Source: Dokdonia sp. 4H-3-7-5
GTDB taxonomy: Bacteria > Bacteroidota > Bacteroidia > Flavobacteriales > Flavobacteriaceae
Reading direction: 5' to 3'
DNA: 64,000 nucleotides
Assembly (NCBI RefSeq): GCF_000212355.1
Contig: NC_015496.1
Span: 1,798,001 to 1,862,000 of the forward strand
Shown here: in pieces, positions 1,159-63,824 of the stretch
Numbering within the stretch: position 1 is the first letter of the stretch
How the letters are laid out: each line of letters starts with the position of its first letter
The notes under the pieces: generated by a model
The model's input: only the letters and a program-made list of their open reading frames with translations
Database searches by the model: none
What the model was told of the DNA's origin: nothing
Program-made: the position numbers and the translations under genes

Positions 1159-1174
1159 CGCTTTCGCGAAAGCG
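1159..1174. repeat. Palindrome copy 1 (CGCTTTCGCGAAAGCG)
   Basis: Exact 16-bp palindrome in the gap between the MBL hydrolase and the cyoE promoter. The flanks (GTTG before, TAAT after) follow the wider GTTR...YAAC tendency. Confidence 0.97.
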
Positions 1175-1207
1175 TAATTTTAACAACCTATTATGCTTGT
1201 CGTTTTG

Positions 1208-1238
1208 TTGTGCAGATTCCTTTTGGGCAGTATCTTTG
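1208..1238 (+). promoter_or_regulatory. Bacteroidota-type promoter of cyoE
   Basis: TTG at 1208-1210, a 20-bp spacer, then the -7 box TATCTTTG at 1231-1238. The box lies inside the longest open frame that begins at ATG 1193, so translation must begin downstream of it. Confidence 0.6.
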
Positions 1239-1270
1239 CACCACTTAAAAAATTGCTAAACCTACTGTCT

Positions 1271-2164
1271 TTGAGCGACGTCGCCATACATACGAATACC
1301 TACTCTGCCTGGTACGATTTTAAAGAAATCACAAAGATGCGTTTATCTATAAGCGTAGTGTTTTCTAGTGTTGCAGGATATTTTCTTGGAGCCACAGAGA
1401 TAGACTGGTTTATTGTGTTGCTGCTAGCTGTAGGAGGCTACTTTATGGTAGGCGCGTCAAATGCGTATAATCAGGTGCTAGAGAAAGATCTAGACGCATT
1501 GATGGATCGCACAAAAAATAGACCTGTAGCTTCCGGAAGGATGTCTAAGCAAAAGGCGCTCTTAATAGCAATTACATTTACGATTCTAGGTTTAGGAACA
1601 TTGTATTACATAAATCCTCAGACAGCAATGTTTGGAGGGATTTCTATATTTATGTATGTACTGTTATATACTCCCTTAAAAACGAAGACACCTTTATCTG
1701 TTTTTGTAGGGGCATTTCCAGGGGCGATACCTTACATGTTAGGTTGGGTTGCTGCTACTAACGATTTTGGTATAGAGCCTGGGACGTTATTTATGATACA
1801 ATTTTTCTGGCAGTTCCCTCATTTTTGGGCAATAGGGTGGTTTCTTTTTGATGACTATAAAAAAGGAGGCTTTGCTATGTTGCCTACGGGAAAACGTGAT
1901 AAAGGAACTGCAGTTCAAATCGTGTTATACACGGTATGGACAGTACTTATCTCGATAATACCTGCATTTGGGGTAACTGGAGATTTATTTTTAACACCTG
2001 TGTCTGCAATTATCGTTGGGGCACTAGGATTATTTATGCTGTATTGGGCAATTAAATTGTACCAAAACAGAGATGCAAAAACAGCCAAACGACTAATGCT
2101 TTCAAGTGTGACTTACATTACACTACTTCAAATTGTTTTTGTAATAGATAAATTTTTAAGATAG
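1271..2164 (+). CDS. cyoE: Protoheme IX farnesyltransferase (heme O synthase)
   Basis: Converts heme B to heme O by adding a farnesyl group, the first step in making the oxidase heme. It is an integral membrane enzyme of the UbiA prenyltransferase family with multiple hydrophobic helices. The Asp-rich prenyl-diphosphate site is visible as NAYNQVLEKDLDALMDRT, and a second loop as FDDYKKGG. The open frame extends to ATG 1193, but the -7 box at 1231-1238 lies inside it. I therefore prefer TTG 1271 (MSDVAIHTN, 297 aa), with TTG 1253 as an alternative. It abuts the subunit III gene at 2165 with no gap and heads the oxidase cluster. Confidence 0.92.
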   Translation: MSDVAIHTNTYSAWYDFKEITKMRLSISVVFSSVAGYFLGATEIDWFIVLLLAVGGYFMVGASNAYNQVLEKDLDALMDRTKNRPVASGRMSKQKALLIAITFTILGLGTLYYINPQTAMFGGISIFMYVLLYTPLKTKTPLSVFVGAFPGAIPYMLGWVAATNDFGIEPGTLFMIQFFWQFPHFWAIGWFLFDDYKKGGFAMLPTGKRDKGTAVQIVLYTVWTVLISIIPAFGVTGDLFLTPVSAIIVGALGLFMLYWAIKLYQNRDAKTAKRLMLSSVTYITLLQIVFVIDKFLR

Positions 2165-2746
2165 ATGGATTATACTCAAGGAGGTGAAAAGTTGAAACTA
2201 GATCGTGCTAAAAAGCAGATGTTGTGGTTTGGGATTATAAGTTTGTGTATGACATTTGCAGGACTTACGAGTGCATATATCGTAAGTATGGAACGTCGTG
2301 ACTGGTTAGAAAACTATGATTTTCCGCAGGCGCTTATAGTTTCTACAGTGTTAATCGTAATAAGTAGTATCACGATACATCTTGCCAAAAATGCTATTAT
2401 AAGCGGTAAAAATTCAATGGGAACTTTGTTTTTAATGCTTACACTAGCGCTAGGAATAGGATTTGTGGTTTCCCAGTTTGCAGGCTTTAGTGCGTTTCAA
2501 GAACAAGGATATTATTTTACGGGAGCGTCTAGTAATATTACAACTACGTTTTTCTTTCTTATAATTGCAGTGCACATTGCACACCTTATTGCTGGTTTTA
2601 TATCTTTAATTACAGTAATTATCAATCATTTAAGAGGTAAATATTCTGCAGCAGAACATTTAGGATTAACACTAGGAGTAACGTTTTGGCACTTTTTAGA
2701 TATTCTTTGGGTATTTTTATTTGTGCTTTTATTTATCACAAAGTAA
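2165..2746 (+). CDS. Heme-copper oxidase subunit III-like protein (first of two)
   Basis: 193 residues with five predicted membrane helices and the subunit III signature near the C-terminus (GVTFWHFLDILWVFLFVLLFI). Subunit III does not carry redox centres. It stabilises the catalytic core of cytochrome c oxidase. Length is typical of the compact CtaE/CyoC form. It begins one base after the cyoE stop and so is very likely co-translated with it. A second, larger subunit III follows at 2867, so this copy may serve a different oxidase or act as a partner or assembly form. Confidence 0.88.
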   Translation: MDYTQGGEKLKLDRAKKQMLWFGIISLCMTFAGLTSAYIVSMERRDWLENYDFPQALIVSTVLIVISSITIHLAKNAIISGKNSMGTLFLMLTLALGIGFVVSQFAGFSAFQEQGYYFTGASSNITTTFFFLIIAVHIAHLIAGFISLITVIINHLRGKYSAAEHLGLTLGVTFWHFLDILWVFLFVLLFITK

Positions 2747-2807
2747 ACTAGCGGTACATTGTTTTATAAATACGTATCTAAAACGATTATAAATCGAGGC
2801 TTCAAAG

Positions 2808-2838
2808 TTGATATCTGAACATAAAATACTTATTTTTG
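2808..2838 (+). promoter_or_regulatory. Bacteroidota-type promoter before the large subunit III gene
   Basis: TTG at 2808-2810, a 20-bp spacer and the -7 box TATTTTTG at 2831-2838. It gives a leader of about 25 nt before ATG 2867, so this gene has its own transcription start within the cluster. Confidence 0.6.
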
Positions 2839-2866
2839 CAACCATTAAATTAACCAATTCTTACGA

Positions 2867-3844
2867 ATGGACACGACAGTGACAAACAACGACGCCGAGG
2901 GAACAACTTGGGGTGGTGGTAATCAACCACTAAGAGCGAGCTACGGAAAACTAATGATGTGGTTTTTCATCTTATCAGATGCATTAACCTTTTCGGGCTT
3001 TCTAGCCGCATATGGTTTTTCAAGATTTAAATTTATTGATGCTTGGCCAATAGCCGACGAAGTATTTACACACGTACCTTTCATACATGGGAATTTCCCT
3101 ATGATATACGTAGCGTTTATGACGTTTGTTTTGATTATGTCTTCTGTAACCATGGTACTTGCTGTAGATGCTGGACATCACTTAAAGCATAAAAGCGTAG
3201 CATTCTACATGTTCCTTACCATCATAGGTGGTATTATCTTCGTAGGATCACAAGGATGGGAATGGGCTACGTTCATTAAAGGTGATTATGGTGCCGTAGA
3301 AACAAAGGGTGGTAAAATACTCCAGTTCGTTGATACAGATGGTAATCGTATGGCACTTGGCGACTTCGCTATTACACAAGTAGGAGAGCGTGAGCAACAC
3401 CTTAATAAAAATGGAATTTGGTTCTCAGACGAGGCGACACCTACTACATATTCAATTGAAGAAGTAAAAGCTGGTTTTGAAGCTACTCCTAACGCATTGA
3501 TACGCATCCAGACACTTACAGAAAATGGTGAGAAGACGGTATTGTCACGAGAAGAGTCTCTTGCAAAACTATCTAGAGATGGAAAGCTTGTAGTAGAAGG
3601 AGCAAACCTTATTCATAATGAATATGGAGCACCACTTTTTGCAGACTTCTTTTTCTTTATTACAGGTTTCCACGGATTCCACGTATTTTCAGGTGTAATG
3701 ATCAATATCATTATTTTCTTTAACGTAGTTCTTGGAACTTATGAGCGAAGAGGACACTATGAGATGGTTGAAAAGGTTGGTTTATACTGGCACTTTGTAG
3801 ACCTTGTATGGGTATTTGTATTTACATTCTTCTACCTAGTTTAA
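2867..3844 (+). CDS. Cytochrome c oxidase subunit III, long form
   Basis: 325 residues, well above the usual 190-260 for subunit III. The N-terminal part (LMMWFFILSDALTFSGFLAAYGF) and the C-terminal part (FFFFITGFHGFHVFSGV and YWHFVDLVWVFVFTFFYLV) are standard subunit III helices. Between them, roughly residues 140-250, lies a soluble polar segment of about 110 residues (from GDYGAVETKGG to NLIHNEYGAPL) that replaces a short loop. It should face one side of the membrane and could bind another subunit. The gene follows its own promoter and is followed by subunit IV. I see no oxidase subunit I or II in the window. Confidence 0.92.
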   Translation: MDTTVTNNDAEGTTWGGGNQPLRASYGKLMMWFFILSDALTFSGFLAAYGFSRFKFIDAWPIADEVFTHVPFIHGNFPMIYVAFMTFVLIMSSVTMVLAVDAGHHLKHKSVAFYMFLTIIGGIIFVGSQGWEWATFIKGDYGAVETKGGKILQFVDTDGNRMALGDFAITQVGEREQHLNKNGIWFSDEATPTTYSIEEVKAGFEATPNALIRIQTLTENGEKTVLSREESLAKLSRDGKLVVEGANLIHNEYGAPLFADFFFFITGFHGFHVFSGVMINIIIFFNVVLGTYERRGHYEMVEKVGLYWHFVDLVWVFVFTFFYLV

Positions 3845-3869
3845 TTTACCTTTCAGACTATTATATATT

Positions 3870-4253
3870 ATGGCACACGAACATAAACTTGCAATATTTA
3901 GAGGAACATTAAAGTTCAAGAATAACATTCAGAAAATCTGGGGAGTACTTATATTTCTTTCGATTATCACAGCTGTAGAAGTTGTTCTAGGTATTATAAA
4001 GCCAGAGTTTTTACTAGAAACAACCTTTATAAGAATGAAACTTCTTAACTGGATTTTCATTATCCTTACTATTGTAAAGGCATATTATATTACCTGGGAT
4101 TTCATGCACATGCGTGACGAAGTTAAAGGATTACGTAGAGCAGTAGTTTGGACAGGTATCTTCCTTATTTGTTACTTAGTATTCATTTTACTTACGGAAG
4201 GTGATTATATCTTTGAAGTTTACAACAATGGATTCCAGAGCTGGGATTTCTAA
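3870..4253 (+). CDS. Cytochrome c oxidase subunit IV (prokaryotic)
   Basis: 127 residues with three hydrophobic segments: one near residues 24-45, one near 58-75, and one containing AVVWTGIFLICYLVFILL. This size and topology, and the place directly after subunit III, match the small bacterial subunit IV. That subunit packs against subunits I and III in the membrane. The start at 3870 lies 25 bp after the preceding stop. A strong hairpin terminator follows at 4263, ending this transcription unit. Confidence 0.85.
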   Translation: MAHEHKLAIFRGTLKFKNNIQKIWGVLIFLSIITAVEVVLGIIKPEFLLETTFIRMKLLNWIFIILTIVKAYYITWDFMHMRDEVKGLRRAVVWTGIFLICYLVFILLTEGDYIFEVYNNGFQSWDF

Positions 4254-4262
4254 TAAATAATT

Positions 4263-4289
4263 AAAAGCGACTTTCGAGTCGCTTTTTTT
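4263..4289 (+). terminator. Rho-independent terminator after subunit IV
   Basis: Ten-bp stem AAAAGCGACT/AGTCGCTTTT closed by a TTCG tetraloop and followed by a T run. Confidence 0.9.
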
Positions 4290-4304
4290 ATGTCTTAATT
4301 ATTG

Positions 4305-4320
4305 CGCTTTCGCGAAAGCG
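4305..4320. repeat. Palindrome copy 2
   Basis: Exact CGCTTTCGCGAAAGCG, intergenic, 16 bp beyond the terminator. The flanks are ATTG and TTAT. Confidence 0.97.
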
Positions 4321-4371
4321 TTATTTCATAAAAATTGAAAACAATTATAAGCTCGATTACTTCTTGAGATT

Positions 4372-4379
4372 TATCTTTG
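4372..4379 (+). promoter_or_regulatory. -7 box giving a leaderless or near-leaderless start
   Basis: TATCTTTG ends 5 nt before ATG 4385. The upstream ATG 4364 would precede the box and cannot be on this transcript. No clear -33 TTG is visible. Confidence 0.5.
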
Positions 4380-4384
4380 TAAAC

Positions 4385-5068: not shown

Positions 5069-5081
5069 TAGCTATTAAGTC

Positions 5082-6365: not shown

Positions 6366-6644
6366 ATGAAAAATCTTAAACAAGTACTAGTTGTAATGTT
6401 TTTCTGTTGCGCTTTCGCGAAAGCGGACTTAAATGCAACAGTGGTAGCATCTACTACTCAGTGTGCTATGTGTCGTGCAGTCTTAGAATCTGAAGAAGAT
6501 AATAGTACTGCCAAAGGAATAAACAACGGTATAAAGTACCTTATGGTAATTCCATATATCCTTGTGGGTGGTGTTTTCTACTTCGTTTATAAATCCAAAA
6601 AAAATGCTTCGACTGAACCACAAGATGAACAAACTGATTCATAA
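6366..6644 (+). CDS. Small exported membrane protein with CxxC, end of oxidase cluster
   Basis: 92 residues. A signal peptide (MKNLKQVLVVMFFCCAFAKADL) is followed by a short periplasmic stretch with CAMC, then one membrane helix (YLMVIPYILVGGVFYFVY) and a basic and polar tail. The CxxC could hold a metal or a disulfide, consistent with a place in oxidase assembly, but no family name is clear. Its start is directly adjacent to the DUF420 stop. The signal peptide end (CAFAKA) is written by a genomic palindrome copy at 6410-6425, so this repeat contributes to the cleavage region. Confidence 0.75.
   Translation: MKNLKQVLVVMFFCCAFAKADLNATVVASTTQCAMCRAVLESEEDNSTAKGINNGIKYLMVIPYILVGGVFYFVYKSKKNASTEPQDEQTDS
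6410..6425. repeat. Palindrome copy 3, inside a coding region
   Basis: Exact CGCTTTCGCGAAAGCG within the signal peptide of the small CxxC protein, read in the frame gct-ttc-gcg-aaa-gcg (AFAKA). Confidence 0.97.
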
Positions 6645-9306: not shown

Positions 9307-9320
9307 GCTTTCGCGAAAGC
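9307..9320. repeat. Palindrome copy 4
   Basis: Exact GCTTTCGCGAAAGC 8 bp after the receptor stop, just upstream of the bidirectional terminator. Confidence 0.95.
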
Positions 9321-12096: not shown

Positions 12097-12420
12097 GCAA
12101 AAGGCGATAGTTTTGGTAATGGATGGTATGTAGTGGTTAGTTTTCAGTTTGTATGTGTGAATCTACTATAGAATTTACGGTAATATGACCTCGAGAGTTT
12201 CGTTTTAAGAATAGTTTAAGAAAAAAGGGTTGCGCTTTCGCGAAAGCATAAAAATATCTTTAACAAAACGCTAACATAAGTTAGTGTAACAGAAACTCTC
12301 AAAAACAGTCTATATAATACATTTTACAGCGTAAAAGCTAGCTTAGACATCGAGTACTCTTAACAAGAAATTCACAATATTTAAGTTGCTAAACGTTAAT
12401 ATTGTTATAAACTATTAACC
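12097..12420. other. Divergent intergenic region
   Basis: 324 bp between the minus-strand His-rich gene and the plus-strand export operon. It must hold promoters for both. It contains one palindrome copy at 12234, but I found no clear TAnnTTTG box on either strand and no recognisable operator. Confidence 0.6.
12234..12247. repeat. Palindrome copy 5
   Basis: Exact GCTTTCGCGAAAGC in the divergent intergenic region. The left flank is GGTTGC and the right arm ends CATAAA. Confidence 0.95.
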
Positions 12421-14370: not shown

Positions 14371-14388
14371 ACGCTTTCGCGAAAGCGT
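14371..14388. repeat. Palindrome copy 6 (18 bp)
   Basis: Exact 18-bp palindrome (16-bp core plus A/T) in the gap between the two permease genes, within an operon. Confidence 0.97.
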
Positions 14389-16954: not shown

Positions 16955-16970
16955 CGCTTTCGCGAAAGCG
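16955..16970. repeat. Palindrome copy 7
   Basis: Exact CGCTTTCGCGAAAGCG between the first adaptor gene and the TolC gene. Its right flank is TAACAACC. Confidence 0.97.
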
Positions 16971-19805: not shown

Positions 19806-20483
19806 ATGACACATATTTTATGTCTAGAGACAGCCACCACAAATTGTTCGGTGGCTTTGTCTATTAATGGAAACGTAGTGGCAATGCAGGAGGATAATGC
19901 TCAAAAGTATTCTCACGCAGAGCGATTGCACGTATTTATTAAAGAGGTGCTTGATACAGCAGGTGTTACTAAAGATAAACTTAATGCAATTGCCGTAAGT
20001 AAAGGTCCAGGAAGCTATACAGGGCTTCGTATAGGTGTTTCAGCAACAAAGGGACTCTGTGCCTCACTAGATATACCGCTTATCTCTGTAGATACTTTAG
20101 GTGCGCTTTCGCGAAAGCTAACTGTTAACGATGGCGAACTCATCATACCAATGCTTGATGCGCGTCGTATGGAAGTGTACAGTGCTGTTTTTGATAATAA
20201 TGGAAATCGTCACAGAGAAACCCAAGCACAAATACTAGATGAAACATCCTTCACCGAATATTTAGATAAAGGAATTGTTCACTTTGTGGGGAATGGCGTA
20301 GAAAAATTTCAAGAAATCTGTGAGCATCCTAATGCTAGGTTTGTGATAGGAGAGCTGCCTTCATCAACACAAATGGCAACTATGGCACAGTCAAAATTTG
20401 AAGCTAATGATCTTGAAGATGTAGCTTATTTTGAACCGTATTACCTCAAAGATTTTATTGCAGGTATGCCTAAAGCAAAGTAG
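19806..20483 (+). CDS. tsaB: tRNA threonylcarbamoyladenosine biosynthesis protein TsaB
   Basis: 225 residues, normal for TsaB. The ASKHA-type N-terminal motif (ILCLETATTNCSVALSING), the HAERLHVFI segment and 'VSKGPGSYTGLRIGVSATKGL' are diagnostic. TsaB dimerises with TsaD, which transfers the threonylcarbamoyl group to A37 of ANN-reading tRNAs. It is encoded 3 bp after the export operon, so it may be cotranscribed with it although unrelated. A palindrome copy lies in-frame (GALSRKLTV, about residues 98-106) in a surface loop. Confidence 0.93.
   Translation: MTHILCLETATTNCSVALSINGNVVAMQEDNAQKYSHAERLHVFIKEVLDTAGVTKDKLNAIAVSKGPGSYTGLRIGVSATKGLCASLDIPLISVDTLGALSRKLTVNDGELIIPMLDARRMEVYSAVFDNNGNRHRETQAQILDETSFTEYLDKGIVHFVGNGVEKFQEICEHPNARFVIGELPSSTQMATMAQSKFEANDLEDVAYFEPYYLKDFIAGMPKAK
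20105..20118. repeat. Palindrome copy 8, inside tsaB
   Basis: Exact GCTTTCGCGAAAGC read in the frame gcg-ctt-tcg-cga-aag (ALSRK), a different frame from copy 3. Confidence 0.97.
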
Positions 20484-22433: not shown

Positions 22434-24473
22434 TTAAACTTCCATGAGTTTTAACGCCGCTTTCACAGTCTCTACGGGTAGTTGGCACGTATTATTCACA
22501 CATACATAAATAAATGTTTTGTCTTTATGAAAACGCCCCTTAAAGATGTCGTGATCACTTTTGATAGTACTAGTTGCAATTAATTTATTAGGAATGTAAT
22601 AGCTGTTGAACTCTTTTCTTAGGATTTCTGCATCTTTTCCCACGATGACAAGCTCATAAAAAGGCATGGTATAGTTAAGCATTCCATCCATCCAGTTTGA
22701 AAAACTAGTAGGGCTTTGCTCAATAGATGGCTGAATGTTATGAAGCATTGCTTTAGCCGTATCTCGATAAGTATTATCGCCATAGTAATGAGATAGCGTA
22801 AAGATATTTTTTGCCATTATGGAGTTTGAGGACGGAATCACGTTATCATAAAACTCCGTGTTACGACTTGCGAGGCTAGGATCTTGGTTTGATTTAAAAA
22901 AGAACAAATCATTTTTTGGATTTTGAAAATGTTGAAAGGTGTAATCTGTAAGTTCTTTAGCCTTATTAAGCCATTGATTATCTGCAGTAACTTCATAGAG
23001 TGCTATAAAGGCATCTACTATAGCAGCATAATCCTCTAGATATCCATTTATAGTACTTTTTCCATTTTTAAAGGTGCGATTGAGACCGCCATCTTCTCTC
23101 ATAAGATTGGTACTTAAGAAAGTAGCGTTTTTTAATGCAGCGGTAAGAAATGCATCCTCATTAAAGGCTCGGTAGGCATCTACATACCCTTTAATCATTA
23201 ATCCATTCCAAGAGGTTAGGATCTTATCATCGAGGCGAGGTTTTTCTTTATTGCTTTCGCGAAAGCGTAATAAATCCTCATGCCATTTATTTTTCTTAGA
23301 AATGATTTCTTCCACTGAAATGTCACACTCTTTTGAAAAATCTTGATCTGTATCTTGTCTAATAAGTACATAGTTGTCTTTCTCCCACTTCCCATAGGAG
23401 TTGATGTTGTAGTATTCCTTAAAAAGATCAAAGTCATCACCTACCAACGTTTGTAGCTCTTTTTCAGTCCACACGTAATAAGCTCCTTCTTCTAGAATTC
23501 CATCTGCAGTTAAGCTATCTGCATCTATAGCGCTATAAAAAGCTCCATCTTCCGTCGTCATCTCGCGGGCTATAAACGTTAAGGTTTGATAGACCGTTTG
23601 CTTGTATAAAGGATTTTTAGTCTTTGTATAGGCTAGCGCGTATAAGCTTACTAGCTGTGCATTGTCATAAAGCATTTTCTCAAAGTGCGGTACATGCCAC
23701 TTAGTATCTACACTATAACGGGCAAAACCGCCACCTACGTGGTCGTTAATTCCACCAAAGGCAATTTGTTCTAGCGTGGTATTTACATATTCTAAAATTT
23801 CTTGATCTTGATTTTGGTGTGCATACCTAAGTAAAAAGAGGTAGTTATTAGGCATCATAAACTTAGGTGCTCGGTTCAGGCCACCTTGTCTAGTGTCCCA
23901 CTGTCGTGACCACTGGCTTATCGCATTTTGGAGCGTTTCTAACTTAAAATCTGGACTGCTATCATTTGGGATAATTGCATCCATCTCTTGCATGCCTTGT
24001 TCAAGCTTTTCTGCATATTCTATGAGTTTTTCTGGAGCTGTTTGATAGAGTTTTGCAATTTGCTCTAGTGCGCTTGTCCATTCCTCTTTAGGGAAATAGG
24101 TGCCTCCCCATACTGGTCTTCCATCTGGTAATGCAATAGCATTAAGAGGCCAGCCACCTCGACTGGTCATAAGTTGGACAGCATTCATGTATACATTATC
24201 TACATCTGGACGCTCCTCACGATCTACTTTTATATTTTTAAAATGCGCATTCATAAGTTGCGCTACCTCTGTATTTTCAAAGCTCTCGTGCTCCATGACA
24301 TGACACCAGTGGCATGAAGAATAACCTATGCTTATCAATAAGAGTTTGTTTTCCTTTTTAGCCTGAGCGAGCGTTTGCTCATTCCATGGTTTCCAGTCTA
24401 CAGGATTATGCGCATGTTGTAATAGGTAGGGGCTAGTCTCCTGTATAAGATCATTAGTGTAAGGATGTTCCAT
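22434..24473 (-). CDS. DUF255 thioredoxin-domain protein (YyaL/SPATA20-like)
   Basis: 679 residues. The N-terminal DUF255 thioredoxin-like domain has the active-site pair Cys54-His-Trp-Cys57 in [14 protein letters not shown], and '[28 protein letters not shown]' is the family signature. The remainder is an alpha/alpha-barrel like six-hairpin glycosidases or cellobiose epimerases. The cellular role of this widespread family is not settled. No signal peptide is seen, so it should be cytoplasmic. A palindrome copy is read in-frame as LRFRESNKE within a connecting loop (about residues 403-411). Confidence 0.9.
23253..23266. repeat. Palindrome copy 9, inside the DUF255 gene
   Basis: Exact GCTTTCGCGAAAGC, read on the coding (minus) strand as cgc-ttt-cgc-gaa-agc (RFRES), the third reading frame. 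Confidence 0.97.
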
Positions 24474-25012: not shown

Positions 25013-25840
25013 TTACCATCCTCCCGAAGCACCACCACCTCCAAAGCCACCGCCGCCAAAGCCTCCTCCAAAACCACCGCCTCCACCGAAGCTTCCACCA
25101 CCGCCAAAAGATCCTCCACCACCAAAGCCGCCACGTCCCATATTGCTGAGTATGATAACATCCAGTAGTGAGCCGCCTACACTGCGCTTACCGCCATTAC
25201 GACCGCCACCGCGATGATTGTTGCGACTTATGATAATGAGAATAACGATAAAAAAGATAAACATGAGAATCCCTTGTATGGGAAAACCATCGTTACCTTG
25301 TCTCGTTCCTTTAAAGTTTCCTTGTAAACCGTCAAAGATGGCATCTGCGCTTTGATCAAGGCCAGCATAAAAATTCCCTTGTTTAAACTGAGGAATCATT
25401 ATTTTATTTATGATTTGCTCTGCATCGCGATCAGAAATGATACTTTCTATTCCATAACCCGTATTGATATCTACCTTGCGATCATCTTTTGCAAGAATTA
25501 TAAGGATACCGTTATCTTCATCTGCCTGGCCTATTCCCCATTGCTGTCCCCACTTTGCGCCTACCATATCAAGTCCTTCTCCATTAGAAGTAGCGATAAT
25601 AGCAATCACAATTTGTGTTGAGGTACTATCACTGTATTTAATAAGCTTATTTTCTAAAGCACTCTTTTGTCCCGCAGATAATAAGCCTATGTAATCATAA
25701 ACTGCGTCCGGATTTACCTTTGTCGGTTTTTCAGGAATATTAAATTGACCAAATGCAGGAATACTCAGTACTAATAAAAGTAGTGAGAAGAGTACGCTTT
25801 CGCGAAAGCGTGAACCAAAAAAATTATTTTTTTCTTGCAT
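25013..25840 (-). CDS. TPM-domain membrane protein with glycine-rich tail (YgcG type)
   Basis: 275 residues. A basic N-terminus and signal or anchor (LFSLLLLVLSIPAFG) are followed by a TPM domain (about 35-175; 'VYDYIGLLSAGQKSALENKLIKY', 'IVIAIIATSNGEGL', 'GILIILAKDDRKVDINTGYGIE'), a membrane helix (ILMFIFFIVILIII) and a C-terminal tail made almost only of Gly, Phe and Ser. TPM domains occur in envelope stress and photosystem repair proteins, with phosphatase-like activity reported for some. It overlaps the next TPM gene by one base and is part of a TPM-TPM-LemA operon. A palindrome copy encodes SRFRESV just before the signal helix. Confidence 0.9.
   Translation of the reverse strand: MQEKNNFFGSRFRESVLFSLLLLVLSIPAFGQFNIPEKPTKVNPDAVYDYIGLLSAGQKSALENKLIKYSDSTSTQIVIAIIATSNGEGLDMVGAKWGQQWGIGQADEDNGILIILAKDDRKVDINTGYGIESIISDRDAEQIINKIMIPQFKQGNFYAGLDQSADAIFDGLQGNFKGTRQGNDGFPIQGILMFIFFIVILIIISRNNHRGGGRNGGKRSVGGSLLDVIILSNMGRGGFGGGGSFGGGGSFGGGGGFGGGFGGGGFGGGGASGGW
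25794..25811. repeat. Palindrome copy 10 (18 bp), inside the TPM gene
   Basis: Exact 18-bp palindrome in the first 16 codons, read as cgc-ttt-cgc-gaa-agc (RFRES). Confidence 0.97.
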
Positions 25841-28591: not shown

Positions 28592-28609
28592 ACGCTTTCG
28601 CGAAAGCGT
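28592..28609. repeat. Palindrome copy 11 (18 bp)
   Basis: Exact 18-bp palindrome in the divergent gap between the M23 peptidase gene and alaS. Confidence 0.97.
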
Positions 28610-31348: not shown

Positions 31349-32296
31349 ATGATAAAATTACAGACTCAGTTGCCACTTACTACATCATCGACTCCGTTTG
31401 GGTATGATGATACGTTGTTGCTGTTGGGTTCTTGTTTTTCAGAAAACATAGGAGATAAACTAGATTACTATAAATTTCAATCGGTTACAAATCCGTTTGG
31501 GATTATATTTAATCCTATAGCGCTTGAGCGCCTTATACAAGACGCGATTGAAGATAAAACATATACAGAAGAAGATGTTTTTGAACTTGATGGTGTCTGG
31601 AAGTCATACTACGCGCATAGCGATAAAAATGCTTTGAGTAGACTAGGAGCTGTAATACATCTTCAAGAGGCACAGCAATTACTTAGGACGCAGTTAAAAA
31701 GCGCTTCTCATCTCTTTATCACATTAGGTACTGCTTGGGTTTATAGACATATTGAACGAGATGAGGTGGTAGCCAACTGTCACAAGGTGCCTCAGAAGGA
31801 GTTTGTAAAAGAGCTCTTGTCTATAGATGATATTGTGCAAAGTCTATCTCGCATAGTAAAGCTTGTGCGAAACTTCAACCCTGATGTTCACATCACTTTT
31901 ACTGTGTCTCCTGTGCGCCACATAAAAGATGGATTCATAGAAAACACACGAAGTAAATCTCATTTGATTTCCGCTATTCATGAGTTGGTAGATAAGAGTG
32001 GTGTTTCTTACTTTCCTTCTTATGAGATTATGATGGATGAGTTAAGGGATTATCGCTTTTACTGCTCAGATATGATTCATCCTTCGGCACAGGCGGTAGA
32101 TTATATTTGGGAACGATTTGTTGAGGTATACGCTTTCGCGAAAGCGCAACAAACAATAAAACAAGTCTCAAAAGTACAACAAGGAATTACTCATAAACCC
32201 TTTAATGCCGAAGGAGAGCAGCACCAAAAATTCTTGACAAAGTTAGACAGTCAAAAAGAAAAACTAGTACAAGAATTTCCTTGGATGAGGTTTTAA
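31349..32296 (+). CDS. GSCFA-domain protein (SGNH-like hydrolase)
   Basis: 315 residues, the usual length for this Bacteroidota-rich family, named after the motif seen here as LLLGSCFSENIGDKL (near residue 26). Further SGNH-like blocks are 'FITLGTAWVYRH', 'ITFTVSPVRHIKDG' and 'YCSDMIHPSAQAVDYIWERF', the last holding the Asp/His pair. The family is predicted to be an esterase or acyltransferase and is cytoplasmic here, having no signal peptide. Substrate unknown. A palindrome copy encodes VYAFAKAQQ in a helix near residue 262. Confidence 0.9.
   Translation: MIKLQTQLPLTTSSTPFGYDDTLLLLGSCFSENIGDKLDYYKFQSVTNPFGIIFNPIALERLIQDAIEDKTYTEEDVFELDGVWKSYYAHSDKNALSRLGAVIHLQEAQQLLRTQLKSASHLFITLGTAWVYRHIERDEVVANCHKVPQKEFVKELLSIDDIVQSLSRIVKLVRNFNPDVHITFTVSPVRHIKDGFIENTRSKSHLISAIHELVDKSGVSYFPSYEIMMDELRDYRFYCSDMIHPSAQAVDYIWERFVEVYAFAKAQQTIKQVSKVQQGITHKPFNAEGEQHQKFLTKLDSQKEKLVQEFPWMRF
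32131..32146. repeat. Palindrome copy 12, inside the GSCFA gene
   Basis: Exact CGCTTTCGCGAAAGCG read as gct-ttc-gcg-aaa-gcg (AFAKA), the same frame as copy 3. Confidence 0.97.
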
Positions 32297-34423: not shown

Positions 34424-34436
34424 CGCTTTCGCGAAA
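34424..34436. repeat. Palindrome variant, right arm lost
   Basis: CGCTTTCGCGAAA followed by ATG in place of GCG. The TTTCGCGAAA core is intact. Intergenic, between the hydroxylase gene and the enoyl-CoA hydratase gene. Confidence 0.9.
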
Positions 34437-35916: not shown

Positions 35917-36271
35917 AGTAGTTTGTTTTTAAAGATTATTTATAAGCGGTTCTGCACAAAAATTGATAATACTGCTGCAAGATTAGGGTCGTAATCATAA
36001 GGTGATTGTTCTATAAGGTAACAATCCTTTAGTCACTTATCCTGCTTTACCAAACACTTCTTTTATTTGTCTAGTATAAAATGATTGATTTTAAGCATCT
36101 TTCAGATTATTAAAATTATCAATTATCGTACCAAAATGGCTGTTTAAGATAAGCACATTGGTCTCATCAACAAGGTGATGGAATATATGTAACTAAAATG
36201 TAGTAATTGGTGTGTAGAATTTTTCGCGAAAGCGTACTGTATATAATACCTTTATTTACTTTTAAAAGAAC
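35917..36271. other. Intergenic region
   Basis: 355 bp. Apart from a palindrome variant at 36220 and a weak hairpin (GATTGTT/AACAATC, 36004-36026), I see nothing in it. No gene-like frame on either strand. Confidence 0.5.
36220..36235. repeat. Palindrome variant, left arm lost
   Basis: AATTTTTCGCGAAAGCGT: the left GC is replaced by AT/TT, with TTTCGCGAAA (36222-36231) intact. Intergenic. Confidence 0.9.
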
Positions 36272-41204: not shown

Positions 41205-41222
41205 ACGCTTTCGCGAAAGCGT
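41205..41222. repeat. Palindrome copy 13 (18 bp)
   Basis: Exact 18-bp palindrome in the gap between the Spy-like gene and the metalloprotease terminator. The right flank is AACCCT. Confidence 0.97.
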
Positions 41223-43874: not shown

Positions 43875-45347
43875 TCATAACAAGGCAAGTGTAGTCTCAT
43901 AAAGTTTTGTATTATCTAGCGTAGCCTTTATCCACGCAAAGAAACTCACCATAAAAATATCTTCATTTTTTAAGGACGCTACGGTAAATTGATTCATTAC
44001 GCTTTCGCGAAAATTTGATTCCTTCACAATAGTCGGGTCATTAAAAATCTGACTAAACACTTTTATAAAGCGTTCCAATCTCACTTCCGAAAGGATGATC
44101 TTTTTGTATTTCCGTTTGAAACTACGTAGTTGTGAGTGCACGAGGTCAATATATTCTAGCTCATAGTAAATGATTAATGACAATAAATCTCTTTTAATCA
44201 TCCAGTCTATGCCTAGTCGTTCCTCATACCAACTATCGGTATGTTTAAATTTATTAAGCATACTTAAAGCAGCTTTGTGCTCGCCTTGCTGTGTGAGAAA
44301 GACTACTTGTGCGAGCAATACATCTGGATCAACCTTCTTTGTTGATGTTGAGATGTGGTTGTCAATGGCGGTAATAGCAAGAGAGGAAGTACCACTGTAA
44401 TTTAAAACGAAGGAGTTTATGAGAAGCAAATTTTCGCGAAAGCGGGACTCCCACTTTCCATTTTCAGCATTCATCTCGGTATTCATCAACGAGAGATAAT
44501 GCGTTGCTTGTGCAAAATCGCGCACTCTAAAGTGAGCATTTGCCATAAAGTAGAGCACCTGGATGTGATAAAAGCGTTGCTTTTCTTGAACGTTTTCCTT
44601 CTTCTTTATGAGATTATAAGTGTGTGTGATAAAAGGCAGTGCCTCGCCAAAATTGTGATCTAAGTGTGCTGCGGTGTTTATAATCTCTAGCAGCTGGTAC
44701 AGAGATTTAAATGTGAAGGTCTCGTTGATTTCAATATGAAAAGCAGCGAGTATCTCTTCTACCGTTTTCTGTATCCCTTTCTTTAATAGATGTTCATCAA
44801 ATATGAGTATGCGCTTGATGTGTGCATATGCCATGTTGAGTTGCTCTTGCTGTATAAATCGCTGTTGGTTTAGTTGTGCGGCTTGTGTGAGCTCTTGTAA
44901 ATCTACCTCTGGATGAAGGTGACTGTATTGGAACTGGGTGTGGTAACTTTCAATAAGAGCCGTGTGTAAATCAAGATCTTTTGCTTTTTGAGTCGCTTTT
45001 TTTAAGAGTTTTTGTGCAGGTTTATGGAGATCTTGCTCATAGAGAATACGTGCTGCGAGTATCCATTTAAAAACCTGCATATCATCTGAGGTTTCATTTT
45101 CAAAATTTTGAGTGGCTATAAAATCAATGAGACTGTCTTGTAGCCTTTTTGATAGCGCATGATACGCATTACGATTTGGGCTTCCATATAGTAAGATATC
45201 TATATCCTTAAGAGGCGTTCCCTTTCTTATAAGGTTGTATAATGTGAGATTCTTTGTGTCTGATCTTCTATTTTTTGAACGTAAATAGGCCTTGAATAAC
45301 TTACTGCCCTCTGTAGAGAAAGATTGTATGATAGCCGTGATGTCCAT
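43875..45347 (-). CDS. Uncharacterised alpha-helical protein, TPR-like
   Basis: 490 residues without signal peptide or membrane helix. Repeated alpha-hairpin patterns (e.g. 'LLKKATQKAKDLDLHTALIESYHTQFQYSHLHPEVD', 'VLYFMANAHFRVRDFAQATHYLSLMN') suggest a TPR-like solenoid and a scaffold role. No catalytic motif seen. Unusually, two variant palindromes lie within it, 430 bp apart, both read in the RFRES frame (RFRENLLL and FRESVMNQ). No close neighbour gives a role. Confidence 0.65.
   Translation of the reverse strand: MDITAIIQSFSTEGSKLFKAYLRSKNRRSDTKNLTLYNLIRKGTPLKDIDILLYGSPNRNAYHALSKRLQDSLIDFIATQNFENETSDDMQVFKWILAARILYEQDLHKPAQKLLKKATQKAKDLDLHTALIESYHTQFQYSHLHPEVDLQELTQAAQLNQQRFIQQEQLNMAYAHIKRILIFDEHLLKKGIQKTVEEILAAFHIEINETFTFKSLYQLLEIINTAAHLDHNFGEALPFITHTYNLIKKKENVQEKQRFYHIQVLYFMANAHFRVRDFAQATHYLSLMNTEMNAENGKWESRFRENLLLINSFVLNYSGTSSLAITAIDNHISTSTKKVDPDVLLAQVVFLTQQGEHKAALSMLNKFKHTDSWYEERLGIDWMIKRDLLSLIIYYELEYIDLVHSQLRSFKRKYKKIILSEVRLERFIKVFSQIFNDPTIVKESNFRESVMNQFTVASLKNEDIFMVSFFAWIKATLDNTKLYETTLALL
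43999..44012. repeat. Palindrome variant, inside the 490-residue gene
   Basis: ACGCTTTCGCGAAAATTT: the core at 44003-44012 is intact and the right GC arm is lost. It reads NFRES on the coding (minus) strand. Confidence 0.9.
44432..44444. repeat. Palindrome variant, inside the 490-residue gene
   Basis: AATTTTCGCGAAAGCGGG: the core at 44432-44441 is intact and the left GC arm is lost. It reads RFREN on the coding strand. Confidence 0.9.
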
Positions 45348-46067: not shown

Positions 46068-46085
46068 ACGCTTTCGCGAAAACGT
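46068..46085. repeat. Palindrome variant, one arm base altered
   Basis: ACGCTTTCGCGAAAACGT differs from the 18-bp palindrome by one base (G to A in the right arm). Intergenic. Confidence 0.93.
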
Positions 46086-47217: not shown

Positions 47218-47946
47218 TTAAAAATCTGAAGTTACGATGTTGTCAGAAAAGTTTTGATATTCTTTTTCAAACTGCTTTGCCATGTCATCTGGAAATAAGT
47301 GAAAATCTCCAGCTTTTAATGCGCTTACAATTCCTTCAGAAATTTCGGAAGTTGTAGCTCCATTTTCAAAGCCTGCCTTTTCTGCCATATCTGTATCTAC
47401 TGGTCCTGGGTGTACACTTAGTACATTAATTCCTCGCGGACTTAACTCTGTGCGAATTCCTTGTGTCAAAGAATACGATGCTGCTTTTGATGCAGAGTAT
47501 GTAGAGAGTTGAGAGAAGTTTTTGATAGAAGCAATAGAGTTCAATTGTACAAGCGCTCCTTTGTTGCTTTCTAACGTTTTCGCGAAAGCGTTTGCAACAC
47601 GTACTAATCCAAAAGCATTTACCTGTAGCTGATTAAGAAAATCTTCTTCTACATCATCACTTATGATAGACTGTGGTGTCCCTATACCTGCATTGTTTAC
47701 TACTACATCTACATCTGTAGCGTGTTCTGCTAGTGTTTTTATAGAGGCTGTGTTTGACACATCTGCTTGCAAAGTGACTACTTTATCACCATACTTTTCT
47801 TCTAGTTCTTTTGTAGAGTTTGTATCACGTACCGCTAGATATACTTTCTTTGCTCCGTGGTCTAAAAATGACTCCACAATCGCTTTACCAATACCTCTAT
47901 TTGCGCCAGTGACTAATGCTACTTTATTTTCTATTGAAATACTCAT
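47218..47946 (-). CDS. SDR family oxidoreductase
   Basis: 242 residues, classical short-chain dehydrogenase. The NAD(P)-binding TGANRGIGKA is near residue 14, 'DVVVNNAGIG' is the NNAG stabilising motif and the catalytic YSASK Tyr/Lys pair is in 'SQLSTYSASKAASYSL'. Cofactor and substrate cannot be read off. It sits between CMD and EthD-like genes in the TetR-controlled operon. A palindrome variant encodes 'NAFAKTLES' after the NNAG region. Confidence 0.93.
   Translation of the reverse strand: MSISIENKVALVTGANRGIGKAIVESFLDHGAKKVYLAVRDTNSTKELEEKYGDKVVTLQADVSNTASIKTLAEHATDVDVVVNNAGIGTPQSIISDDVEEDFLNQLQVNAFGLVRVANAFAKTLESNKGALVQLNSIASIKNFSQLSTYSASKAASYSLTQGIRTELSPRGINVLSVHPGPVDTDMAEKAGFENGATTSEISEGIVSALKAGDFHLFPDDMAKQFEKEYQNFSDNIVTSDF
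47574..47591. repeat. Palindrome variant, inside the SDR gene
   Basis: ACGTTTTCGCGAAAGCGT, one base off the 18-bp palindrome. Read on the coding strand as gct-ttc-gcg-aaa (AFAK). Confidence 0.93.
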
Positions 47947-49347: not shown

Positions 49348-49369
49348 TTACGCTTTCGCGAAAGCGTAA
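49348..49369. repeat. Palindrome copy 14 (22 bp, longest)
   Basis: The 16-bp palindrome extended symmetrically by TTA and TAA on each side, 22 bp in all. Intergenic, between tetR and the 186-residue gene. Confidence 0.98.
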
Positions 49370-51217: not shown

Positions 51218-51231
51218 GCTTTCGCGAAAGC
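51218..51231. repeat. Palindrome copy 15
   Basis: Exact GCTTTCGCGAAAGC in the divergent gap between the deaminase and flavoprotein genes. The right flank is ATAACCACC. Confidence 0.95.
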
Positions 51232-52502: not shown

Positions 52503-52515
52503 CGCTTTCGCGAAA
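52503..52515. repeat. Palindrome variant, right arm lost
   Basis: ACGCTTTCGCGAAAATAG: core 52506-52515 is intact and the right GC is replaced. Intergenic, just past the YwqK-type gene end. Confidence 0.9.
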
Positions 52516-56378: not shown

Positions 56379-56392
56379 TTTCGCGAAAGCGC
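56379..56392. repeat. Palindrome variant, left arm lost
   Basis: AAATTTTCGCGAAAGCGC: core 56379-56388 is intact, the right arm is complete and the left GC is replaced. Intergenic, before the lysS terminator. Confidence 0.9.
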
Positions 56393-59361: not shown

Positions 59362-59382
59362 GTCACGATAATTATTATAAAG

Positions 59383-59861: not shown

Positions 59862-59895
59862 TTGAGATATTTTTTTATGTTTCTGCGTACCTTTG
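59862..59895 (+). promoter_or_regulatory. Promoter of lipB with leaderless GTG start
   Basis: TTG at 59862-59864, a 23-bp spacer and the -7 box TACCTTTG (59888-59895), ending 4 nt before GTG 59900. Confidence 0.6.
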
Positions 59896-59899
59896 CGCC

Positions 59900-60625: not shown

Positions 60626-60635
60626 GGACGACGCG

Positions 60636-63092
60636 CTAGTTAATCTTGTAAATCAATACCGAGTTACTACCTCCCTGAGTTACAAAACCTAGAGACTTAT
60701 TGCTTCGTAAAAAGCCAACATCTGCCTTAGAAGTTCCATAGATAGGAAAGTTAGGTAGTAATACACCTTTATTGTCATAAATATAGACTTCGCTAGATTC
60801 TGTATTGGTGATAGCAATGTATTGTGATTTTCCAGTGCTTGAGATGCTAGGTGAAGTATAGGTGCCAAAGGCAATCTCTCTCTTCTTACCATTTACCACA
60901 AGATTGTTTTCTCTCAAACCTACTTTCAGTTTACCCTCAATAGCGATTTTTGAATCAGATTGAAAATCTGAAATACTCTGGGTAAGCTTCCCAGAGGTGT
61001 TAATGCTCACTTTCTCACCATTAACTGTAAAGGTTTCAAAGTTGTTGCCATACTTATATATAGGAGTATCTCCAAAGTTGATTTTTTCTTTAACGTCAAT
61101 TCGCGTTTTTCCTGTGCGATTTAAGATGTGCAGCTTCCCGCTATTCTCGGCAATCGTGATATAATCTTTGTTACCTATGCGCATATGTGCTGGAGGATAT
61201 AAAATTGCACTTCCTGCTTCTCTAAAGGTAAATCCAGAAACAGCTTTTGCATTTTTATCATACATCAGTACTTTATCTTTTTGTACGATGACAAAACGGT
61301 AATTACTGTTATTGTCATAGTCGAAGATAGAAAGCGGTTGCGTGATGTTATCTTTAAAAGAGAGCGGATAAGGACTCACTTCTTTACCATTACGATCCAA
61401 CACATAAAATGAAGATGGCGTGGTAAAAGCGAGTTGCAATCTGCCATTGCGGTATAGATCTATCTGCTGCACCTCACCTAGTATTTGACCATCTAGGTCT
61501 TTTTGCCACAATACTTTTCCTGCATTACTTATTAGATATAGCGTGTTGTTTATGTCTTGAACCACTACATCCTTTCCATTAGTACGATGATTTGTTACTA
61601 GCTGCGGCGTCATTGTGATGTCTGCGCTTAGTTTTACATTGGCAATTTGAGCAATATTTGCATCTGTAGTGGCCTCGTCGTTCTTGAGAATTGCCATATT
61701 TAGTAGTAAGTAGTCCTTTTCTTGTATGAGCTGTAGCGCGCTATAATCATAGCCATCCAGAGTGATATCTTTTAATACTTTTTGACCATCTTCTGAGGCG
61801 AGCTCTTTATATGCATTACTGCTCAGACTAGAAATATGTAAATAACTAGACGCACGACTTAAAGTGCTTTCCGTGTTCTGGAAGGTAGCGCTGTTAGATA
61901 GGGTTGCTTTATTCTGATAGTTGGCAATTACAGTTTCTAGCGCTTCTTGATTTTCGGCAAAAAGATAGAAGTCATCTATAGATGCGTATAAAGTAGGAGA
62001 TGAAAGATTGAGTAGAGGTGAGTACGCTTTCGCGAAAGCGGAACCCATATTAATCTCATAGATGGAAACCTTTCTAAATTCGGCTTTTTCTGAAGCGCTC
62101 GCAAGTTCATTGCCGGTAACCGTAATATCTGTAGAAACTCCCACTATTACTTTTCCTTTAGGCAGATGAATCATTCCTACCTCTGAGAAACTAGCAAAAA
62201 GATCCTCACGTGCAAGCGTGTATTTAGAGAGGTCTAGTTTCAAAAAATCTGCTTTACTAGATTTAAACTGCTGCCAGTCGTCATAGGTGATAGCCTCTAC
62301 AGCAATTGCAGCCGTAGGAGTAATAGATGCAATTCTATTCACTACCGGTTGTGTGTCTTTAAGTAAACTCAATCTTTGTGATGTAGAATCTTGCACCAGC
62401 GCAACACCACTCAGTCTGATGTCATTGTTATCCAAGTCAACATCTGCCGCAGTCCAAGAAAACGAATTTTTCAGCGCATTTGCTGTTGCATTAGGAAATA
62501 GACTCTTATACAAGCTAGCACCTTCTGATCCTCTTATAAATATAGAAGCCGTAGCGCTATTGCTAGATGAGGTGTATGCTTTTTCAAAAAGGTCATCTTC
62601 ATAGATCTCTGTGTTATCCTCTCTTAATACATTTTCTAAAAGGATTTTTGATGTACTAGCAATGAGCACGTCCTTATATATAAGATAATGTGCGGTTACG
62701 CCTAATGTTTTAATAGTTGGGTTCTTAAGTGCTGCTTCTTTCATGAGTAACGAGTCTCCTTTAAAAAGCGAAGCATGCGCTTTTGTAATCATACTAATGT
62801 CATAGTCATTACGGCCTAGTTTTGTATAACACAACAAGGTCTCGCCGTCTGGTTGTATGTCTTTAAACAATGTCTGCCCTTTAACTAGGGTTTTATAAAG
62901 TGCCGTAGGAGCTAGCTCTTGTATAAGGTCATTATTTACAAGTGCACTTTTAAGATCCTTAAAGTCATTAGTCTTTATAACAACCGCCGCTTTGCGAGGT
63001 ATATATTTAGTAAGAGAAGATGATGCCTTTGGTGTAGTGTCGCAACTAGCGAGAATAACAAGGCTAAAAAGTATGTAAAAGAAAGATTTCAT
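60636..63092 (-). CDS. Large lipoprotein of unknown function, beta-propeller-like C-terminus
   Basis: 818 residues. The lipobox is LASC (Cys17, VILASCDTTPKAS). The N-terminal half holds alpha/beta segments ('VVIKTNDFKDLKSALVNNDLIQELA'), and the C-terminal half has repeated beta-strands resembling propeller blades ('VLWQKDLDGQILGEVQQIDLYRNGRLQLAFTTPSSFYVLDRNGKEV'). No known domain is certain. A palindrome copy is read in-frame as GSAFAKAYSPLL. It is convergent with lipB (gap of 10 bp). It may be an envelope scaffold or biogenesis factor, given the following rnhB gene on the same strand. Confidence 0.75.
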   Translation of the reverse strand: MKSFFYILFSLVILASCDTTPKASSSLTKYIPRKAAVVIKTNDFKDLKSALVNNDLIQELAPTALYKTLVKGQTLFKDIQPDGETLLCYTKLGRNDYDISMITKAHASLFKGDSLLMKEAALKNPTIKTLGVTAHYLIYKDVLIASTSKILLENVLREDNTEIYEDDLFEKAYTSSSNSATASIFIRGSEGASLYKSLFPNATANALKNSFSWTAADVDLDNNDIRLSGVALVQDSTSQRLSLLKDTQPVVNRIASITPTAAIAVEAITYDDWQQFKSSKADFLKLDLSKYTLAREDLFASFSEVGMIHLPKGKVIVGVSTDITVTGNELASASEKAEFRKVSIYEINMGSAFAKAYSPLLNLSSPTLYASIDDFYLFAENQEALETVIANYQNKATLSNSATFQNTESTLSRASSYLHISSLSSNAYKELASEDGQKVLKDITLDGYDYSALQLIQEKDYLLLNMAILKNDEATTDANIAQIANVKLSADITMTPQLVTNHRTNGKDVVVQDINNTLYLISNAGKVLWQKDLDGQILGEVQQIDLYRNGRLQLAFTTPSSFYVLDRNGKEVSPYPLSFKDNITQPLSIFDYDNNSNYRFVIVQKDKVLMYDKNAKAVSGFTFREAGSAILYPPAHMRIGNKDYITIAENSGKLHILNRTGKTRIDVKEKINFGDTPIYKYGNNFETFTVNGEKVSINTSGKLTQSISDFQSDSKIAIEGKLKVGLRENNLVVNGKKREIAFGTYTSPSISSTGKSQYIAITNTESSEVYIYDNKGVLLPNFPIYGTSKADVGFLRSNKSLGFVTQGGSNSVLIYKIN
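62025..62040. repeat. Palindrome copy 16, inside the large lipoprotein gene
   Basis: Exact CGCTTTCGCGAAAGCG, read on the coding strand as gct-ttc-gcg-aaa-gcg (AFAKA). Confidence 0.97.
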
Positions 63093-63112
63093 AAGTGCGC
63101 TTAAGGTGGGTT

Positions 63113-63120
63113 CAAAAATA
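63113..63120 (-). promoter_or_regulatory. -7 box of the large lipoprotein gene
   Basis: TATTTTTG on the minus strand about 20 nt before ATG 63092. No clear -33 TTG. Confidence 0.45.
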
Positions 63121-63185
63121 CAACCTCAGTCTTGAGAACTTCTTGAGAACCTCATATTGTTATTGACTACTTTTTAAACAAGGGA

Positions 63186-63824
63186 TTAGCTGTTATTCTT
63201 AAACGTAAAATCTAGTTCGTATTGTTCTGGAAGTAACTTAAAGCTCTTGCGATGATACTTTGTAATACCATATCTGCGTATAGCCTCTCGATGTTCCTTG
63301 GTGGGGTATCCTTTGTTTTTCTTCCAATTGTACATAGGGAACTCTTCGTGTATGAGATTCATATATTCATCACGAGCAGTTTTTGCAATAATAGACGCAG
63401 CAGCAATAGGCAAGTATTTTCCGTCGCCCTTTATAACTGTGGTGTGGTCAATCTTAGGAAAAGGTTTAAACCGATTGCCGTCTACAAGAATGTGTTGTGG
63501 TTTTTTTTGCTTTCGCGAAAGCGTACCTATCATACTTTCAATACTGCGGTGCATTCCTAAGATGGAAGCATTAAGGATATTAATATCGTCTATCTCACTC
63601 ATCATTACATGAGCAAATCCGATAGCAATTGCTTGTTCTTCTATAATAGGTTTGAGTAATTCACGTTTCTTCTCTGTGAGAAGTTTAGAATCTGTAAGTA
63701 TCTCGTTAATGAAGTCGTCTGGAAGCATTACGGCAGCAGCCGTAACAGGGCCTGCGAGGCAGCCACGGCCAGCTTCGTCCGTGCCACATTCTATGAGATG
63801 AGTATGATATTTGAGTTTAAGCAT
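63186..63824 (-). CDS. rnhB: Ribonuclease HII
   Basis: 212 residues, full length. The catalytic Asp16-Glu17 are in the opening motif ([22 protein letters not shown]), with further acidic residues in '[10 protein letters not shown]' and '[17 protein letters not shown]'. It removes RNA in DNA hybrids, mainly single ribonucleotides and primers. A palindrome copy is read as [11 protein letters not shown] in an exposed loop. It lies about 90 bp upstream of the large lipoprotein gene. Confidence 0.95.
63509..63522. repeat. Palindrome copy 17, inside rnhB
   Basis: Exact GCTTTCGCGAAAGC, read on the coding strand as acg-ctt-tcg-cga-aag (TLSRK), the same frame as copy 8. Confidence 0.97.

Follow-up and report, generated by a model that had tools for sequence, protein, structure and literature searches.

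Palindrome copies in the window

The window analysed here is a stretch of 64,000 nucleotides from the flavobacterium Dokdonia sp. 4H-3-7-5, corresponding to positions 1798001-1862000 of its genome (G000; a single contig, 3,389,993 bases long). Scattered along it, with cores spanning 1162 to 63520, are 25 copies of the palindromic 10-mer TTTCGCGAAA, against a mean of 0.05 and a maximum of 1 in 100 dinucleotide shuffles; 17 copies carry the longer form GCTTTCGCGAAAGC, which the shuffles never produce. A preliminary description of this DNA had put the abundance far beyond chance, the G+C content at about 37% and the longest form, of 22 bp, at 49348, and measurement confirms all three (G+C, 37.5%; longest copy, 49348-49369). 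The perfect palindrome extends over 22 bp in one copy, 18 bp in four, 16 bp in six, 14 bp in six and 10 bp in eight. The copies are listed below, without strand, together with their context according to our own crude gene caller and with the outcome of alignment to the syntenic stretches of five relatives (G006, G004, G001, G016 and G007).

1159-1174, 16-bp copy, divergent intergenic; core identical in 5/5 aligned relatives
4305-4320, 16-bp copy, tandem intergenic; core present in 4 relatives and missing from G007
6410-6425, 16-bp copy, start of a weakly called short open reading frame (ORF); core kept in 5 relatives
9307-9320, 14-bp copy, convergent intergenic; kept in G006 and G004, absent in G007
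12234-12247, 14-bp copy, divergent intergenic; core one base off in G004
14371-14388, 18-bp copy, tandem intergenic
16955-16970, 16-bp copy, tandem intergenic; kept in 5 relatives despite diverged flanks
20105-20118, 14-bp copy, in a called gene; kept in 4 relatives, lost by substitution in G007
23253-23266, 14-bp copy, in a called gene; kept in 5 relatives
25794-25811, 18-bp copy, 5' end of a called gene
28592-28609, 18-bp copy, divergent intergenic, upstream of alaS
32131-32146, 16-bp copy, in a called gene, reads AFAKA; kept in 5 relatives
34427-34436, perfect 10-bp core, divergent intergenic
36222-36231, perfect 10-bp core, divergent intergenic
41205-41222, 18-bp copy, tandem intergenic; kept in 4 relatives
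44003-44012, perfect 10-bp core, in a called gene; full-arm form in G001 and G016
44432-44441, perfect 10-bp core, in a called gene; full-arm form in G001 and G016
46072-46081, perfect 10-bp core, convergent intergenic
47578-47587, perfect 10-bp core, in a called gene
49348-49369, longest copy, 22 bp, tandem intergenic
51218-51231, 14-bp copy, divergent intergenic
52506-52515, perfect 10-bp core, convergent intergenic
56379-56388, perfect 10-bp core, tandem intergenic
62025-62040, 16-bp copy, in a called gene, reads AFAKA
63509-63522, 14-bp copy, in a called gene; kept in G006, G004 and G007

Throughout the genome TTTCGCGAAA occurs 1012 times, about once per 3.35 kb, far above the 10 occurrences of the reversed pattern. 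Clustering in the window alone is likewise excluded, since 40 further stretches of 20 kb hold 3-9 copies apiece. The window and these stretches together form a sample of 864 kb with 264 copies, from which a symmetrised consensus TACGC-TTTCGCGAAA-GCGTA was derived. The C-G-C adjoining the core is 78-90% conserved. Beyond it, for about 20 bp on the 5' side, each strand contains little C (about 7%) and much T and G, in genic and intergenic copies alike. Perfect 14-mers number 202 in the sample, accompanied by 27 one-base and 60 two-base variants; for the reversed control the corresponding counts are 0, 0 and 3. In 12 of the 27 one-base variants the change lies inside the core with intact arms, and 7 of these 12 are C to T at CpG.

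The latter changes are what loss by deamination would give and speak for methylation of the site. An orphan methyltransferase would then mark it for repair, replication or self/non-self discrimination, in the manner suggested by HIP1 of cyanobacteria (GCGATCGC), the closest iterated palindrome in print. HIP1, the subject of PMC4390886, is likewise a loopless palindrome iterated genome-wide, also in genes; the present palindrome differs in sequence, is longer, recurs about once per 3 kb and belongs to Flavobacteriaceae, the family in which the alanyl-tRNA synthetase (AlaRS) of this genome has its relatives, with identities not exceeding 75%. A site of 16-20 bp with long flanks, however, exceeds those usual for methylases, and the C5 methylase family PF00145 has no match in 9 of 15 genomes rich in the palindrome (carriers), the genome of the window included; N6-adenine and N4-cytosine methylases were not searched. 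We therefore disfavour a 5-methylcytosine methylase, one form of the methylase or repair system proposed earlier as reader, as a general basis. Overall we regard a methylation-linked function as improbable.

Across the 264 sites the two arms vary independently (z of most positions between -2.5 and +2.6); the outliers, at -4 (z 2.6) and -22 (z 2.5 for Watson-Crick pairs, 3.0 with G-T), form no pattern. Independent variation favours protein recognition of the duplex over a hairpin, as the preliminary description had also judged likelier, and we infer that the palindrome is a site at which a protein recognises duplex DNA. A hairpin or RNA element is rejected on the same test. The arm GCGAAAGC forms an unusually stable mini-hairpin in single-stranded DNA, which might matter for a step involving single strands.

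Placement, spacing and conservation

Intergenic DNA, 110.5 kb of the 864 kb by our gene calls, contains 141 of the 264 copies, a density 7.8 times that of genic DNA. The statement that all copies lie between genes nevertheless has to be corrected, as 119 of the 264 are situated well inside genes. Intergenic densities per kb are 1.31 between tandem, 1.21 between divergent and 1.84 between convergent genes. Between tandem genes the copies are closer to the upstream gene (25, 18, 20, 8 and 7 of 78 by successive fifths), which, together with the intergenic preference, would suit a transcription terminator, a promoter element or an RNA hairpin. Yet the density between divergent genes equals that of the other classes, almost half of the sites are genic, the arms lack co-variation, and the dyad is preceded by T-rich and followed by A-rich sequence, the opposite of an intrinsic terminator. 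Orientation classes and flank polarity lead us to reject terminator and promoter, as they do not match the hairpin with following T-run that marks an intrinsic terminator at gene ends; functions of this whole group appear highly unlikely.

Copies inside genes use the reading frame encoding AFAKA in 80 of 123 cases. At window site 32134, 14 homologues from non-carriers, those listed among 56 matches, display variable residues and lack the AFAKA peptide. The sites so occupy places where harm is least.

In the genome of the window, spacing is more even than random. The coefficient of variation (CV) of the gaps in the 864 kb is 0.56, compared with 1.01 ± 0.05 for 500 random placements that preserve the coding/intergenic split, the lowest of which gave 0.87. 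Gaps below 1 kb number 19 where 75 are expected, and copy counts in 20-kb stretches have a variance-to-mean ratio of 0.32 versus 1.11 ± 0.25. Close pairs, with 8-38 bp between cores, occur 13 times in 21 carriers versus about 144 under uniform placement, the reversed control of the close-pair pattern showing one occurrence in 5 of 22 genomes. Every sampled 20-kb stretch of G000 contains sites, and exclusion from origin or terminus is not visible. One copy lies inside comEC and another in the gap between surE and the lpxB-comEC pair.

Some stretches of DNA are long and site-free. They include single giant ORFs of 3368, 4431 and 5060 codons, the latter two being palindrome-free neighbours in G001 (L239, 1927-15222; L240, 1626-16808), each preceded by a 318-codon ORF. 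In G000, the locus L234 (98500-112500) comprises an 11.6-kb stretch of low G+C content (32%) that is palindrome-free between its ends and looks like an acquired island.

The Chi sequence of Escherichia coli, which lies in GT-rich surroundings, invites comparison with the GT-rich 5' flank of the palindrome. A Chi-like recombination hotspot or another signal for a repair enzyme of the double-strand-break pathway would suit the copy number, which resembles that of Chi (1008 sites, about 1000 per genome; PMC1939737). Chi is, however, an asymmetric 8-mer in that source, and for such a signal we would expect neither even spacing nor a symmetric site of at least 16 bp. We consider this explanation very unlikely.

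Alignment of the window with its relatives reveals strong conservation of the cores: those aligned and identical are 23/23 in G006, 24/25 in G004, 13/13 in G001, 13/13 in G016 and 7/10 in G007, whereas flanking 10-mers 40-150 bp away are identical in 57, 52, 12, 13 and 10%, respectively. In the reverse direction, core identity is 22/23, 24/25, 13/15, 13/15 and 7/10. As 2, 0, 12, 12 and 15 of the 25 window sites are unalignable in these genomes and alignment may be aided by the site itself, the values for the distant relatives are upper estimates. Among the 25 sites no clean insertion is seen in any of the five relatives; states with and without the site differ by substitutions, and from these alignments gains and losses look like products of substitution. 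A mobile repeat spreading by insertion, as its high copy number might suggest, would moreover not be expected to keep the frame of genes, as 80 of 123 genic sites do with AFAKA. Neither compensating stem changes nor insertions with target duplication are found. Repetitive extragenic palindromes (REP), bacterial interspersed mosaic elements (BIME) and miniature inverted-repeat transposable elements (MITE) are thus rejected, in agreement with the preliminary description, and we hold spread by insertion to be the most improbable of all explanations.

Distribution among genomes and phages

All 18 genomes of the genus of the window (g1) contain 481-1195 copies, with 9-23 for the reversed control. 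Copy number is not proportional to genome size (955-1195 copies in 4.8-5.5 Mb, 1018-1045 in 3.3 Mb), as if accessory DNA were poorer in sites. In a sample of 299 genomes of the family, counts are high only in g1, in the genus g11 (595 and 700) and in one genome of g191 (559); the other 294 have 0-34 copies (highest: G161, 34; G059, 27; G093, 26; G303, 25; G068, 23). Counting within g11 gives 319-893 copies in 23 of 23 genomes, so that the palindrome marks two whole genera besides the single g191 genome. Across the class, none of 395 sampled genomes exceeds 30 copies apart from that of the window.

An rpoB tree of 30 genomes joins g191 and g1 as sister groups (support 0.83) and places g11 far from g1, near the outgroup, with low backbone support. 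G161, which adjoins g191 on this tree, has no core in 135 kb sampled. So the trait would appear to have arisen or moved at least twice, or to have been lost very frequently. Despite their rpoB distance, g1 and g11 have the 16-mer in common. The g11 flanks have T at -12 in up to 73% and at -6 in up to 80%, and the flank signal of g191 sites is weak. Of the anchored sites, 6 of 27 in g11 and 4 of 17 in g191 coincide with a reference site or lie close to one; of the in-gene g11 sites, 2 of 8 match the reference to the base, one of them following a GHSMGGY motif that favours AFAKA.

The non-carriers listed from the family sample have, as a rule, fewer copies of TTTCGCGAAA than of its reversed control (often 0-4 versus about 10), as if it were avoided there. 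A survey for other dialects in 80 named loci around alaS, weak in that it covers one locus per genome, found no comparable palindrome. Repeated 10-mers do occur in loci of named Flavobacteriaceae and relatives (L059, L043, L073, L055 and L015): TAGATTTTAG 13 times in 21 kb, CATTATCCAT 10 times, TAGATTTCTC 11 times, GTGTTTAGTG 8 times and GCGCAGTCGA 7 times.

The 16-mer is also present in 30 viral contigs of IMG/VR, 19 of which have at least two cores in the sequence examined; several have equal site spacing and are not independent. The pieces examined have no match to the sampled carrier chromosomes (blastn, E 1e-20), and 36 distinct viral sites show the flank signature. One of the contigs, 3300040781_000495, belongs to a Mu-like phage encoding terminase, portal, sheath, a DNA transposition protein and its ATPase; it has 8 cores, 7 of them inside ORFs, in 31.2 kb examined as non-overlapping pieces. 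In another contig an integrase adjoins a palindrome site, and some temperate-phage contigs have the palindrome at host density. By contrast, the near-identical Nonlabens phages P12024S and P12024L, which lack an annotated integrase and measure 35.7 kb each, contain no core at all; the density of g11 would predict about 7, a contrast conditional on a link of g11 with Nonlabens. A Mu-like Winogradskyella phage (terminase 54.5% identical) has none either. These few phages, taken with the presumed link of g11 to Nonlabens, fit the view that DNA residing in a carrier chromosome becomes marked.

Candidate readers and interpretation

Surveys of carriers for ParB_N, PF00145, comEC and genes at close pairs did not identify the reading protein. 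ParB-parS and Noc-type sites are palindromic 16-mers with TTTC...GAAA halves; in the present palindrome the half-sites are two bases closer than in the parS consensus. Of 9 carriers tested for ParB_N, 8 have a single match and G013 has two, and non-carriers have one to three. Sites resembling parS, with the canonical ACGT centre, occur separately in sampled carrier DNA. Hence there is no general extra ParB in the carriers tested, nor is parS replaced; an extra ParB is rejected as reader, and the segregation factor suggested in the preliminary description, the interpretation of which is otherwise partly supported, is disfavoured. Among 8 distinct places where close pairs might adjoin the gene of their own reader, no common regulator-like gene emerged. 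Two of the 8 lie between surE and a group formed by a 95-codon gene, lpxB and comEC:

about position 1500, close pairs near the surE/comEC group, one place shared by L433, L439 and L441 (G001, G008 and G016) and the other in L443 (G007)

The position beside comEC is suggestive only. No laterally transferred gene common to g1 and g11 was found in the sampled stretches; the best g11 matches examined encode a sigma factor as well as a deaminase, and two g191 matches are thioredoxin and ClpP. In open-licence literature, papers on HIP1, on Dokdonia and on transformation in Dokdonia or Nonlabens (the best 10 of 256) included, we found no description of the palindrome, no uptake sequence for flavobacteria or Bacteroidetes and no palindrome associated with flavobacteria; one paper does mention the core 10-mer, as a sequence that the human genome lacks.

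On the basis of the conserved T-rich flanks, the even spacing, the restriction to two separate lineages and the presence in temperate-phage contigs, none of them foreseen in the preliminary description, the better guess is that the palindrome may be a DNA-uptake or self-recognition sequence spread by biased recombination, a reading that we put forward tentatively and as somewhat short of probable. The reader would be a protein or dimer of the natural-transformation pathway, located at the surface or in the periplasm, and would bind duplex TACGCTTTCGCGAAAGCGTA together with the T-rich flanks on its 5' sides. Self DNA, with about one copy per 3 kb, would then be imported and recombined more than foreign DNA, and recombination would tend to restore lost copies or to spread new ones. 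Copies would build up singly by point substitution where the genome tolerates them, a second nearby copy adding nothing. We infer here the protein reader, its role in DNA uptake and biased recombination as the driving force. Incremental sites, two lineages, permissive places and the lack of a close second copy are as biased uptake and recombination would predict, and a 16-mer common to the distant g1 and g11 is explained most easily if a reader of fixed specificity moved and the sites then grew singly.

Known DNA uptake sequences (DUS) of Neisseria and uptake signal sequences (USS) of Pasteurellaceae such as Haemophilus resemble the palindrome in several respects. They have about 1000-2000 copies per small genome, a preference for permissive or intergenic places, high conservation between orthologues, even spacing and genus-level dialects (PMC2397512, PMC1939737, PMC3630211, PMC7811141); DUS occupy permissive regions of the core genome, where they are highly conserved (PMC2397512), and even spacing is reported for uptake sequences (PMC1939737). 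The palindrome is likewise over-represented genome-wide (1012 versus 10; 18 of 18 genus genomes) and conserved at permissive positions. As to poverty in accessory DNA, copy number does not grow with genome size and one of the site-free stretches, of 11.6 kb, is low in G+C, but two more each consist of one giant gene, and temperate-phage contigs are rich in sites. DUS and USS differ in being asymmetric 9-12-mers of another phylum, and USS recur about every 1 kb rather than 3 kb. The receptor for DUS of Neisseria is ComP. Natural transformation has been demonstrated in the related Riemerella, which has surface proteins of unknown role (PMC8459023).

Several observations weigh against an uptake role. 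Described DUS and USS are non-palindromic (PMC1939737), although DUS form overlapping dyad pairs in Simonsiella (PMC3630211), and at 17 of the 25 window copies the perfect palindrome reaches 14 bp or more, so that asymmetry is not a trait of this site. An uptake role would presuppose competence of the carrier genera, and comEC is non-discriminating, being present in 30 of 30 genomes tested, carriers and non-carriers alike. One-base variants within the core are few, 12 with both arms intact beside 202 perfect 14-mers, a tighter distribution than loose molecular drive suggests. Spacing is less even for the first 100 sites of G001 (CV 0.83, matched or undercut by 60 of 2000 uniform simulations) and in G704 (CV 0.76; 5 of 2000), both values being raised by a few long gaps. 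Finally, the same facts fit a chromosome-organising protein.

In this main alternative, which corresponds to the nucleoid organiser among the readers suggested in the preliminary description, a dimeric cytoplasmic protein would bend, wrap or bridge the chromosome at about 1000 even sites, which resident phages adopt. The perfect dyad with arms free of co-variation, the even spacing with avoidance of close pairs, the occurrence in every sampled 20-kb stretch with no visible exclusion from origin or terminus, and the T-rich, C-poor 5' stretch of about 16-20 bp on both strands of genic and intergenic copies all suit such an organiser. It, too, explains dyad, flanks and spacing, but two origins less easily, since hundreds of sites would have to evolve in two lineages with a tiny gain apiece. 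Furthermore, the two related Nonlabens phages without annotated integrase have no site, though these are extrachromosomal, and no candidate protein was found, an extra ParB not being general in carriers. We regard a chromosome-organising lattice as rather unlikely.

A wider proposal embraces both functions and seems to us possible, if on balance doubtful: a symmetric, laterally acquired DNA-reading system may have marked the chromosomes of two distant flavobacterial lineages, and their resident integrating and Mu-like phages, with a 20-bp palindrome roughly every 3 kb, leaving virulent phages unmarked. This would be a lattice of self-identity of a novel kind. The mark might serve selective import, sparing of self from defence, or chromosome packing. 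At about one site per 3 kb, any self fragment of several kb would carry at least one mark.

If the palindrome is an uptake sequence, natural transformation would be frequent in abundant marine flavobacteria, and the site would provide a bait for the DNA receptor; to our knowledge, it would be the first uptake sequence from Bacteroidota as well as the first with a perfectly palindromic form. A function in organising the chromosome would instead point to a nucleoid protein for which about 1000 sites are already mapped. The exact list of sites makes this question directly testable.

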